Source: Actinophytocola sp.
GTDB lineage: Bacteria; Actinomycetota; Actinomycetes; Mycobacteriales; Pseudonocardiaceae
Length of the DNA: 36,343 bases
Assembly: GCA_009379975.1 (NCBI GenBank)
Contig: WHSS01000019.1
Coordinates: forward strand, 1 to 36,343
Reading direction: 5' to 3'
Both the position numbers and the translations under genes were made by a program. A model generated the notes under the pieces. The model saw only the letters and a program-made list of their open reading frames with translations. It had not been told where the DNA came from and did no database searches. Shown in pieces: positions 15,935 to 18,467 of the stretch; the first letter of the stretch is position 1, and each line of letters begins with the position of its first letter.

Positions 15935-16040
15935 CTCGTGCGTGAAATTCGTTGCGGGGGCAGCTCTCAGCACTCACGACTCACGTAGCTGAGGTCGTGA
16001 GTGCTGAGGCGTGCGGGGGCACTGACTTTCACGCACGACG
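15935..16040. repeat. Repeat family 2, head-to-head inverted pair
   Basis: The right unit (15994-16040) matches the 47-base unit at 6345-6391 with three differences. The left unit (15935-15980) is a diverged inverted copy. Together they form a long hairpin: CTCAGCACTCACGAC (15966-15980) pairs perfectly over 15 bases with GTCGTGAGTGCTGAG (15994-16008), and the outer GTGCGTGAAA pairs with TTTCACGCAC. It lies between the convergent exonuclease and DAHP synthase genes and should terminate both. Confidence 0.75.
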
Positions 16041-16074: not shown

Positions 16075-17169
16075 TTAGTCTGCGCGCCGGACTCGCACCG
16101 CAGCGTCGAGCCGGTCGAGCAGCTCGCTGGTGGCATCCCAGCTCATGCACGCGTCGGTGATGCTCTGACCGTAGGTGAGCTCATGCCGCTTGCCGAGGGT
16201 GAGGTCCTGCCTGCCCGGCTCGAGGAAGCTCTCCAGCATGATGCCCGCGATGCCACGTTCGCCCGCCGCGTGCCGGTCCGCGATGTCGTCGGCGACCTCG
16301 GCCTGCCGCAGGTGATCCTTGCCGCTGTTACCGTGACTGGCGTCGATGATCACCCGTTCCGGCAGCCCCGCCTTGGCCTGGGCGGCGAGCGTGCTCGCGA
16401 CCGTCTCGGCGTCGTAGTTCGGGCCTGCCGCGCCGCCGCGCAGGATGACGTGACAGTCCGGGTTGCCCGCGGTGGTCATGAGCGCGGCGAGGCCGTCGTC
16501 GTTGATGCCGGGGAAGACGTGGCTGGCGGAGGCGGCGCGGGTGGCGTCGACCGCGACCTGCACATCCCCCTCGGTCGAGTTCTTGATGCCGACCGGCATG
16601 GACAACCCGCTGCACAGCTGCCGGTGTACCTGGCTGGCGGCCGTCCGCGCGCCGATGGAGCCCCAGCTGACGGTGTCGGCGATGAACTGCGGGGTGATCG
16701 GGTCGAGGAACTCACAGCCGACAGGCAGCCCCAGTGCCGAGACATCGAGCAGCAACCGGCGCGCCAGCCGCAGGCCACGGTTCACCGCGAAGCTGCCGTC
16801 CAGCTCGGGATCGTTGATGAGGCCCTTCCAGCCCAGCGTGGTGCGCGGCTTCTCGAAGTACACCCGCATCACCACGTGCAGCTGCTCGCGTACGCGGTCG
16901 GCCTGCTCGGCGAGCTTGCGCGCGTAGTCGAGCGCGGCATCGGGATCGTGCACGGAACACGGGCCGACGACGACCAGCAGCCGATCGTCGACGCCGTCGA
17001 GGATGGCGCGCGTGTCGTCGCGGCCCTGGCCGACGGTCTTGGCCGCGGCCGGATCGAGCGGGTGCTCCTGGCGCAGTAATGCGGGGGAGAGCAACGGGCT
17101 GACCGCGGTGACGCGCTGATTATGAAGCCGAGCGCCGGTGCTTTCGCCTCGGCCTGCGGTGGGCGGCAT
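16075..17169 (-). CDS. aroG: Type I DAHP synthase (3-deoxy-7-phosphoheptulonate synthase)
   Basis: A 364-residue enzyme joining phosphoenolpyruvate and erythrose 4-phosphate, the first step of aromatic amino acid synthesis. It is the AroF/AroG/AroH (type I alpha) class: LLVVVGPCSVHD, MRVYFEKPRTTLGWKG, GCEFLDPITPQ, GARTAASQVHRQLCSGLSMP, GIKNSTEGD and IIDASHGNSGK are all in order. The metal ligands expected in this class (Cys in GPCSVHD, His in DASHGNS, Glu in MLESF, Asp in TDACMSW) are present. ATG 17169-17167 has AAAGGA (17182-17177) seven bases upstream; the open frame to 17379 is rejected because it overlaps the leader peptide and its RNA structure. Feedback specificity cannot be read with certainty. 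Confidence 0.95.
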   Translation of the reverse strand: MPPTAGRGESTGARLHNQRVTAVSPLLSPALLRQEHPLDPAAAKTVGQGRDDTRAILDGVDDRLLVVVGPCSVHDPDAALDYARKLAEQADRVREQLHVVMRVYFEKPRTTLGWKGLINDPELDGSFAVNRGLRLARRLLLDVSALGLPVGCEFLDPITPQFIADTVSWGSIGARTAASQVHRQLCSGLSMPVGIKNSTEGDVQVAVDATRAASASHVFPGINDDGLAALMTTAGNPDCHVILRGGAAGPNYDAETVASTLAAQAKAGLPERVIIDASHGNSGKDHLRQAEVADDIADRHAAGERGIAGIMLESFLEPGRQDLTLGKRHELTYGQSITDACMSWDATSELLDRLDAAVRVRRAD

Positions 17170-17176
17170 CAGTAGA

Positions 17177-17284
17177 TCCTTTCTACAAGCCGCCCCTTCA
17201 CCTTGAGCCGGCTTGCTTGTCCGGCTCGGAGGGTGGGAGTGATCAGCGCATGGTTTCGCCGCCGTGCCCACCCGGGGCCGGCTC
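17177..17284 (-). promoter_or_regulatory. Putative attenuator RNA in the aroG leader
   Basis: Four mutually exclusive segments can be drawn on the minus strand. Segment 1, inside the leader peptide gene, has GAGCCGG (17284-17278) and GGGTGGG (17273-17267). Segment 2 has CCCACCC (17237-17231) and GAGCCGG (17227-17221). Segment 3 is AAGCCGGCTC (17214-17205). Segment 4 is CGGCTT (17192-17187), four bases before the aroG ribosome binding site. Possible pairings are 1:2 (7 bp), 2:3 (GAGCCGG with CCGGCTC, 7 bp) and 3:4 (AAGCCG with CGGCTT, 6 bp). No U-tract follows 3:4, so control would more likely be at translation initiation. This is inference from sequence. Confidence 0.6.
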
Positions 17285-17308
17285 GCTAAACCAGAAATAA
17301 CGCTGCAT
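17243..17308 (-). CDS. Aromatic leader peptide upstream of aroG
   Basis: A 21-codon open frame from ATG 17308 to TGA 17243, beginning MQRYFWFSEPAPGG and ending GGETMR. Residues 4-7 are Tyr-Phe-Trp-Phe: four consecutive aromatic residues, covering all three end products of the pathway that aroG opens. TAGGCT lies exactly seven bases before the ATG, so the leader peptide is probably translated from the very 5' end. The gene ends 73 bases before aroG, and the RNA between them can adopt alternative hairpins. Stalling of the ribosome at these codons when aromatic aminoacyl-tRNAs are scarce would be the expected signal. It is too short for family assignment; the call rests on residue content and position. 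Confidence 0.75.
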   Translation of the reverse strand: MQRYFWFSEPAPGGHGGETMR

Positions 17309-17315
17309 GGGCGGC

Positions 17316-17344
17316 AGCCTAACATGAGCCGACACGGCCGAGCC
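17316..17344 (-). promoter_or_regulatory. Promoter of the aroG leader transcript
   Basis: On the minus strand TAGGCT (17321-17316) is a good -10, seven bases from the leader ATG. The region 17 bases further upstream (GCTCGG) is a poor -35, so an activator or an extended -10 context may be needed. Confidence 0.5.
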
Positions 17345-17441
17345 GGCCCCGGGGGTGCCAGGTGCGGGGCCGCCTGCACCGATCCAGTAACCCTGGCTAG
17401 GGTGAGAAACGACAGTGTGATCTGGGTAACTCGGAGGTCCG

Positions 17442-18467
17442 ATGCGTGTTGGATTGCTGACCGGTGGCGGCGACTGCCCCGGTCTCAATGCGGTGATCAG
17501 GGCGGTCGTCCGCAAAGGGATCGAGGATCAGGGCTGGGAGGTGGTCGGGTTCCGCAGCGGCTGGCAAGGCCCGATGTCAGGCGATTCGAGGCCGCTGGGG
17601 CTCGACAACGTCGAGGACATCCTGGCGCGCGGCGGTACCATCCTCGGCTCGTCCCGCACGAACCCCTACAAGGAGGACGGCGGGGTCGACAAGATCAAGA
17701 AGGTGCTCGCCAACCAGGGAATCGACGCGCTGATCGCCATCGGGGGAGAGGACACCCTCGGCGTCGCCAAGCGGCTGACCGATGACGGCGTCGGCGTCGT
17801 CGGGGTACCGAAGACCATCGACAACGACTTGGACGCCACCGACTACACCTTCGGCTTCGACACCGCGGTGCACATCGCGACCGAAGCCATCGATCGGCTG
17901 CGCACCACGGCCGAGTCACACTTCCGCGCGCTGGTCGTCGAGGTGATGGGCAGGCACGCGGGCTGGATCGCCCTGCACTCGGGACTGGCGGGCGGCGCCA
18001 ATGTGATCCTGGTCCCGGAGCGGCCGTTTTCGGTGACCAAGGTCGTCGAATGGGTCGAGCGCAGGTTCGAGCGGATGTACGCGCCGATCATCGTGGTGGC
18101 GGAGGGCGCGCTCCCGAAGGGTGGCGCCGAGGTGCTGCACACCGGTGAGAAGGACGCGTTCGGGCACGTGCGCCTCGGCGGCGTCGGTAGCTGGCTTGCC
18201 GACGAGATCGCGCACCGTACCGGCAAGGAGTCGCGCGCCGTCATCCTCGGGCACACCCAGCGGGGCGGGACGCCGACGGCCTACGACCGGGTGCTGGCGA
18301 CCCGGTTCGGGCTGCACGCCGTCGACGCGGTCGCAGACGGGGATTTCGGCACCATGGTCGCGTTGCGGGGCACCGATATCGTGCGGGTGCGACTCGCCGA
18401 GGCCACCGCGAAACTCAAGACCGTGCCGGAAGACCGCTATGCCGAGGCCGAGGTGTTCTTCGGCTGA
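17442..18467 (+). CDS. pfp: Pyrophosphate-dependent 6-phosphofructokinase
   Basis: A 341-residue PfkA-family enzyme that phosphorylates fructose 6-phosphate. The start MRVGLLTGGGDCPGLNAVIR, the substrate loop PKTIDNDL (123-130), GRHAGWIA, and the GHTQRGGTPTAYDR block are all typical. At the two positions that decide the phosphate donor the residues are Asp104 (GGEDT, where ATP enzymes have GGDGT) and Lys124 (PKTID, where ATP enzymes have PGTID). Asp104 with Lys124 is the signature of PPi-dependent enzymes, which work reversibly in glycolysis and gluconeogenesis, as characterised in Amycolatopsis methanolica. ATG 17442 is preceded by CGGAGG; TAGGGT at 17398-17403 is a candidate -10. It is divergent from the aroG leader. 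Donor specificity is inferred from these residues. Confidence 0.92.
   Translation: MRVGLLTGGGDCPGLNAVIRAVVRKGIEDQGWEVVGFRSGWQGPMSGDSRPLGLDNVEDILARGGTILGSSRTNPYKEDGGVDKIKKVLANQGIDALIAIGGEDTLGVAKRLTDDGVGVVGVPKTIDNDLDATDYTFGFDTAVHIATEAIDRLRTTAESHFRALVVEVMGRHAGWIALHSGLAGGANVILVPERPFSVTKVVEWVERRFERMYAPIIVVAEGALPKGGAEVLHTGEKDAFGHVRLGGVGSWLADEIAHRTGKESRAVILGHTQRGGTPTAYDRVLATRFGLHAVDAVADGDFGTMVALRGTDIVRVRLAEATAKLKTVPEDRYAEAEVFFG

Follow-up and report, generated by a model that had tools for sequence, protein, structure and literature searches.

What governs the expression of the type I DAHP synthase gene in Actinophytocola sp., and does the short open reading frame in front of it take part? The question is raised by a stretch of 36,343 nucleotides (hereafter the window), in which aroG, whose product matches TIGR00034 (type I DAHP synthase) with E 1.7e-143 and whose best start is 17169, is preceded by a frame reading ATG CAG CGT TAT TTC TGG TTT AGC GAG CCG GCC CCG GGT GGG ... 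CGC TGA, with 73 nt between the stop of the one and the start of the other. The Tyr-Phe-Trp-Phe leader that an earlier note on this DNA had placed ahead of aroG is thus confirmed, with the aromatic residues at codons 4-7. The elements of the locus are as follows.

17316..17321, minus strand: predicted -10 box TAGGCT, 7 nt before the leader start (from sequence)
17243..17308, minus strand: leader ORF, MQRYFWFSEPAPGGHGGETMR, 21 codons, kept across actinobacteria
17288..17299, minus strand: putative stall codons 4-7, TAT TTC TGG TTT (Tyr-Phe-Trp-Phe); UAU and final UUU are favoured in leaders
17177..17184, minus strand: Shine-Dalgarno (SD) sequence of aroG, AGAAAGGA, inside the 4:5 hairpin described below
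16075..17169, minus strand: aroG, type I DAHP synthase, 364 aa (TIGR00034)

The genome encodes one type I and one type II DAHP synthase, and no aromatic leader was seen within 350 nt upstream of the latter. The putative leader promoter is situated in a gap of 133 bp (17309-17441) that it shares with a divergent 341-aa ORF that starts at 17442 and resembles 6-phosphofructokinase. Across 113 leaders the end of a TAnnnT box lies 7 nt upstream of the start codon (T at -13 in 74%, A at -12 in 74%, T at -8 in 85%, C at -1 in 94%). This spacing predicts that the transcript is leaderless and starts at 17308, in agreement with the start near this position expected in the earlier note. On the other side of aroG, at 15966-16008, there is a palindrome, CTCAGCACTCACGAC..GTCGTGAGTGCTGAG, whose arms have 25 exact copies in the genome including this site, several of them as facing pairs 28 nt apart; it is a dispersed repeat that possibly serves as a terminator.

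Is the leader more than a chance frame? Among the upstream regions of type I DAHP synthase genes gathered from named genomes as well as across the window's family, order and class, most of those from actinobacteria contain a short ORF in the same place, in which a cluster of aromatic codons leads into PA[L/P/R]GG or APGGA; the genera include Amycolatopsis, Pseudonocardia, Rhodococcus, Nocardia, Mycobacterium, Gordonia, Tsukamurella, Dietzia, Streptomyces, Micromonospora, Kribbella and others. Within the Pseudonocardiaceae-Nocardiaceae clade of the AroG tree, which includes the window, a recognisable leader is present in 101 of 105 members, as against an ORF of leader type in 17 of 2100 shuffled upstream regions, so that its occurrence is beyond chance, and the comparison of 5' regions proposed in the earlier note finds the frame kept in Pseudonocardiaceae and beyond. 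The leader is absent upstream of distant type I paralogues and in the Nocardiopsis group. The exact-start pattern ATGCAR..TAYTTYTGGTTY matches only 4 of 200 family genomes, being too strict because many leaders begin with GTG or vary in the aromatic run.

Several loci at the margins of this distribution deserve mention. Three members of one genus (L107, L180 and L185) retain aroG and have lost the aromatic run of the leader, an apparent decay of the sensor, and in two further loci (L091 and L100) an intact leader frame has no ATG or GTG at the usual site, which points to either an unusual start codon or decay. Some type I DAHP synthases of beta- and gammaproteobacteria have aromatic leaders of their own, for example MSAKFYFYFFWYLRPLADREG and MNASCRSFYFWYYGFPMPLAEEGSRSP (loci L048, L049, L054, L060, L062, L066, L067, L078, L081 and L083), with a U-tailed hairpin after the leader in L044, L066, L067 and L070; Rfam has no listing for the three proteobacterial leaders that were tested.

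The choice of codons within the leader is distinctive. Of 179 distinct leaders (one is betaproteobacterial), 164 have Phe at the end of the aromatic run, and this final Phe is encoded by TTT (UUU) in 158 of the 164; Tyr within the run is TAT (UAU) in 170 of about 192-193 cases, and for the internal Phe codons TTC is the commoner. The bodies of the genes that follow use TTT for 13 of 571 Phe codons and TAT for 1 of 492 Tyr codons. When a single sequence is taken per 80% AroG cluster, the bias persists (TTT for 27 of 29 final Phe, TAT for 31 of 36 Tyr). Could the leader, all the same, merely aid reinitiation at aroG, without any sensing? Short leader genes near gene starts are indeed common in Actinobacteria (PMC4833913), but the distance between leader stop and aroG start is 73 nt, against a described peak at 10-11 bp, and neither the codon bias nor the co-evolution of RNA helices described below would be explained; we regard this as the least probable of the readings considered here.

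The transcript beyond the aromatic codons can be divided into five segments, each with alternative partners.

17267..17282, minus strand: segment 1, GCCGGCCCCGGGUGGG, within the leader ORF (partner-swap test, 0/1000)
17221..17237, minus strand: segment 2, CCCACCCUCCGAGCCGG, partner of 1 or 3
17205..17215, minus strand: segment 3, CAAGCCGGCUC, partner of 2 or 4
17186..17196, minus strand: segment 4, GGGGCGGCUUG, partner of 3 or 5 (3:4 covariation; 4:5 swap test)
17161..17176, minus strand: segment 5, UCUACUGAUGCCGCCC, contains the aroG start codon (minimum-energy fold; family-wide 4:5 co-evolution)

The three pairings of the earlier note, 1:2 (GGGTGGG/CCCACCC), 2:3 (GAGCCGG/CCGGCTC) and 3:4, are all present and compete with one another, although two of them are longer than it had them and the fifth segment was missed: 3:4 is CAAGCCG/CGGCTTG, one pair more than the AAGCCG/CGGCTT given there, and 1:2 continues into GCCGGC/GCCGG, by which it overlaps 2:3. 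Neighbouring helices share nucleotides all along the chain (1:2 with 2:3, 2:3 with 3:4, 3:4 with 4:5), and at least 3 nt of segment 4 are common to 3:4 and 4:5 in 107 of 110 relatives. The leaders fall into two classes: in class B, segments 2 and 3 are separated by a U-tailed hairpin in many members, that of C. glutamicum among them, and in nearly all members of class A, which includes the window, this hairpin is missing. The class B hairpin has the form GGCAG[AU]GACC..GGUC[GU]CUGCC with a UUUUGUC tail (for example in L037, L143 and L123) and does not overlap 1:2.

Do these helices evolve as pairs? In an alignment of 65 sequences (A1), 2:3 is unchanged over its 7 pairs and 3:4 has compensatory changes at three pairs, so that the compensatory changes that the earlier note had hoped to see in the stems are found in 3:4 and not in the invariant 2:3. 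For 3:4 there are 54 double-change cells as compared with 22 in shuffles, none of 500 shuffles reaches 54, and slid controls fail. Since the spacing of 1:2 is variable, this helix was tested by swapping partners between species, a procedure that removes shared ancestry only in part: the native combinations are more stable than the swapped ones both in class A (-25.6 against -23.2 kcal/mol) and in class B (-29.5 against -26.1 kcal/mol), in each case beating 1000 of 1000 permutations. In the same test of 3:4, 0 of 1000 permutations reach native stability; among cluster representatives the figures are 98/2000 (n=8), 0/2000 (n=17) and 0/2000 (n=38), and within 80% and 85% clusters 0/1000, the native pairs being no better than permuted within 90% clusters. 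The co-evolution of 1:2 bears on yet another view of the leader, namely that its conserved PAPGG peptide acts through nascent-chain arrest or in trans and that RNA pairing is secondary. The persistence of PA[LPR]GG or APGGA from Streptomyces to Mycobacterium would suit this view; however, the motif varies as pairing demands (GCCGGC..GGGUGGG as against GGCUCCGGGUGG) and is complementary to segment 2 in each species, and the odd codons are located in the start of the run rather than in the motif. We find it very improbable.

The fifth segment, in the stretch from the SD to the opening codons of aroG, changes the picture. In the window, GGGCGGC of segment 4 pairs with GCCGCCC over the start codon, and GUAGA (17186-17182) pairs with UCUAC around the SD core, so that the 4:5 helix encloses the SD and start codon of aroG, as in a translational attenuator. 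This helix is invariable in the small group of the window's nearest relatives; across the family, own partners (-16.37 kcal/mol) are more stable than swapped ones (-13.53 kcal/mol), with 0 of 1000 permutations as good. The result recurs among cluster representatives (3/2000 for n=8, 0/2000 for n=17 and for n=38) and within clusters (0/1000 at 80% and 85%, 5/1000 at 90%), and in class B, too, there is an SD-enclosing pairing (swap test, 0/1000). Examples of the paired arms are those of L103 (CGCGGGUC/GACCCGCG), L102 (CGGGG..GGCUU/AAGUC..CCCCG), L121 (CGUGGGU/ACCCACG) and L094 (GCGGG..GGU/ACC..CCCGC). RNAalifold yields no consensus structure for the ribosome-binding-site part, because the arms of the helix shift register.

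So which helices go with starvation and which with plenty? Given that 4:5 encloses the ribosome-binding site, the OFF state should combine 2:3 with 4:5 and the ON state 1:2 with 3:4, and we infer from sequence and folding the following order of events. Transcription would begin at the start codon of the leader. Under a shortage of charged tRNA for Tyr, Phe or Trp, the ribosome would wait at UAU-UUC-UGG-UUU, just 5' of segment 1, whereupon the emerging segments 1 and 2 would pair, segment 3 would take 4, and the aroG ribosome-binding site would stay open. When the tRNAs are charged, the ribosome would pass segment 1 to the stop codon and mask part of segment 2; 2:3 would then form, leaving segment 4 free for 5, and 4:5, on this scheme a conditional helix, would shut the SD and start codon. 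Joint sensing of the three amino acids is possible.

Folding with a ribosome footprint (13 nt hidden, counted from the A-site codon's first base) is in part consistent with this order. Placing the first aromatic codon in the A site gives the largest number of 1:2 pairs (12.8, as compared with 8.9 without a ribosome), a ribosome positioned at the stop gives 2:3 at 0.97, and 3:4 forms in 107 of 110 cases when segment 2 is engaged and segment 5 not yet made; in the window, a ribosome at Tyr4 removes 2:3 and every other state gives 2:3. The energy needed to open the ribosome-binding site is lower in the 1:2 state by 1.5 kcal/mol from SD to AUG and higher by 0.9 kcal/mol over a wider stretch. Equilibrium folding was dropped as proof of the switch, 2:3 being dominant in nearly all states.

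The earlier note had assumed the opposite polarity: a stalled ribosome covers segment 1 and 2:3 opens the ribosome-binding site, which is otherwise blocked by 3:4 beside the SD. This order draws on the fact that 3:4 is real and ends 1-3 nt 5' of the SD, and on the footprint model with the last Phe codon, the most constrained of the run, in the A site, where the 5' part of segment 1 is hidden and 2:3 wins. Nevertheless, it is the co-evolving 4:5, not 3:4, that encloses the SD and start codon, and 2:3 already dominates both without a ribosome and with a ribosome at the stop, and so is not specific to starvation. Furthermore, in two loci (L311 and L252) a U-run directly follows the 2:3 hairpin, which fits 2:3 as the OFF form; the terminator-like run in L311 in particular speaks against the earlier polarity, which we consider unlikely. 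As a general intrinsic terminator 2:3 was rejected, the U-run after it being confined to these two loci. Together with L298, they have U-runs behind the segment-2 hairpin, a terminator-like form in an otherwise terminator-less class.

At what level, then, would the switch act? No terminator-like site was found between the window's leader stop and aroG, in line with the missing U-tract of the earlier note, and the window thus has no counterpart of the intrinsic terminator of aroR- and trp-type transcription attenuators. On a FastTree AroG tree, which is approximate, the A/B label changes twice among 142 labelled rows, so that roughly a single loss of the U-tailed hairpin, in the Pseudonocardiaceae-Nocardiaceae line, is probable. 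The hairpin's absence from the window's clade indicates translational output. Alternatively, the leader could act on transcription here too, as C. glutamicum aroR reportedly does, by governing early termination that depends either on Rho or on a hairpin lacking a U-tract. A poorly translated aroG mRNA could become exposed to Rho, which would favour this alternative, and the C. glutamicum leader (L314), described as transcriptional, has a strong U-tailed hairpin; yet such a hairpin is missing from the window and nearly all of class A, and the SD-enclosing 4:5 pairing would be left unexplained. Transcriptional output in the window's clade thus seems improbable. What the conserved leader, the codon bias and the co-evolving helices support is the attenuator on aroG that the earlier note had proposed, and we believe, with reasonable though not high confidence, that it is sensed by the ribosome with the same sensor as in C. 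glutamicum aroR and, in the window's clade, probably acts on translation. More tentatively, a wider scenario, for which we would give somewhat less than even chances, is that one sensor serves the committed aromatic step over most actinobacteria, with stall points set by the wobble-read UAU and UUU; Corynebacterium would couple it to a terminator-like hairpin, mycobacteria and others would add the ribosome-binding-site hairpin, and the Pseudonocardiaceae-Nocardiaceae line would have a purely translational chain of five segments.

DAHP synthase controls the entry of carbon into the aromatic amino acids and many actinobacterial natural products, and a widespread RNA control of aroG that is missing from Rfam would make a simple engineering target; replacement of aroR is already in use in C. 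glutamicum (PMC7356990). Rfam 15 gives no regulatory match on the window at E<=5 (no leader family, no T-box) and, at gathering score in 11 relatives, tRNA-Sec as the sole match. The element would also illustrate clearly how the output of a sensor can shift between transcription and translation with the role of the sensor unchanged. Searches of openly accessible full texts returned the C. glutamicum case alone and nothing on the window's group, so that the earlier note's statement that no specific description exists holds for that group but not for its relative in C. glutamicum. Of the eight leader peptides in a reannotation of Streptomyces lividans, not one belongs to a DAHP synthase gene. 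A 2005 survey (PMC1262725) reported nothing at aromatic genes beyond trp, and its conclusion that the other amino acid biosynthesis genes of Actinobacteria have no conserved structures in front of them would have to be qualified.

How does the element compare with known systems? As in the trp-type attenuators (E. coli trp and the actinobacterial trp leaders, PMC1262725), stalling at codons for the product amino acid would select the helix; unlike them, the window has no intrinsic terminator, and the final helix of its chain closes around the SD and start codon. With the translational T-box of actinobacterial ileS (PMC1262725) it shares a hairpin over the SD governed by amino acid supply, but the T-box reads tRNA directly, whereas in the window the translated leader would be the sensor. 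The LEU element upstream of leuA in Actinobacteria likewise has a leader peptide and usually no terminator, and is described as a conserved pseudoknot (PMC1262725).

The closest relative is aroR of C. glutamicum, a Phe-Tyr-Phe leader described as a ribosome-mediated attenuator of aroF (Mentz 2013, PMC4046766; Neshat 2014, as cited in PMC11802643) and reported to respond to Phe limitation but not to Tyr availability (2025 review, PMC11802643). L314 (genome G592) was taken as this locus on the strength of a primer sequence from PMC7356990 that matched 1 of 242 genomes of the genus. Its leader, MFAARFYFMSGSGASPRQLAISCAT, contains TTT TAT TTT, then GGCTCCGG, and past the stop come CCGGAGTC and a hairpin with a TTTTTTGTTT tail. 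Common to both loci are an aromatic leader ORF with UUU/UAU codons before a DAHP synthase gene, a -10-like box right before the leader ATG, and a segment 1 that lies two codons past the last Phe and is complementary to a segment beyond the stop, the C. glutamicum counterpart of 1:2 being GGCUCCGG/CCGGAGUC. Thus, the kind of element is already known from aroR-aroF, and the sensor is common to both; only C. glutamicum has the U6-tailed hairpin after segment 2, and its output is reported as transcriptional. The window, without that hairpin, adds Trp to the run and the 3:4/4:5 chain around the SD, and to the known kind it joins a fifth segment hitherto unnoticed in this case, a polarity that is the reverse of that in the earlier note, and a probable translational output in this clade.
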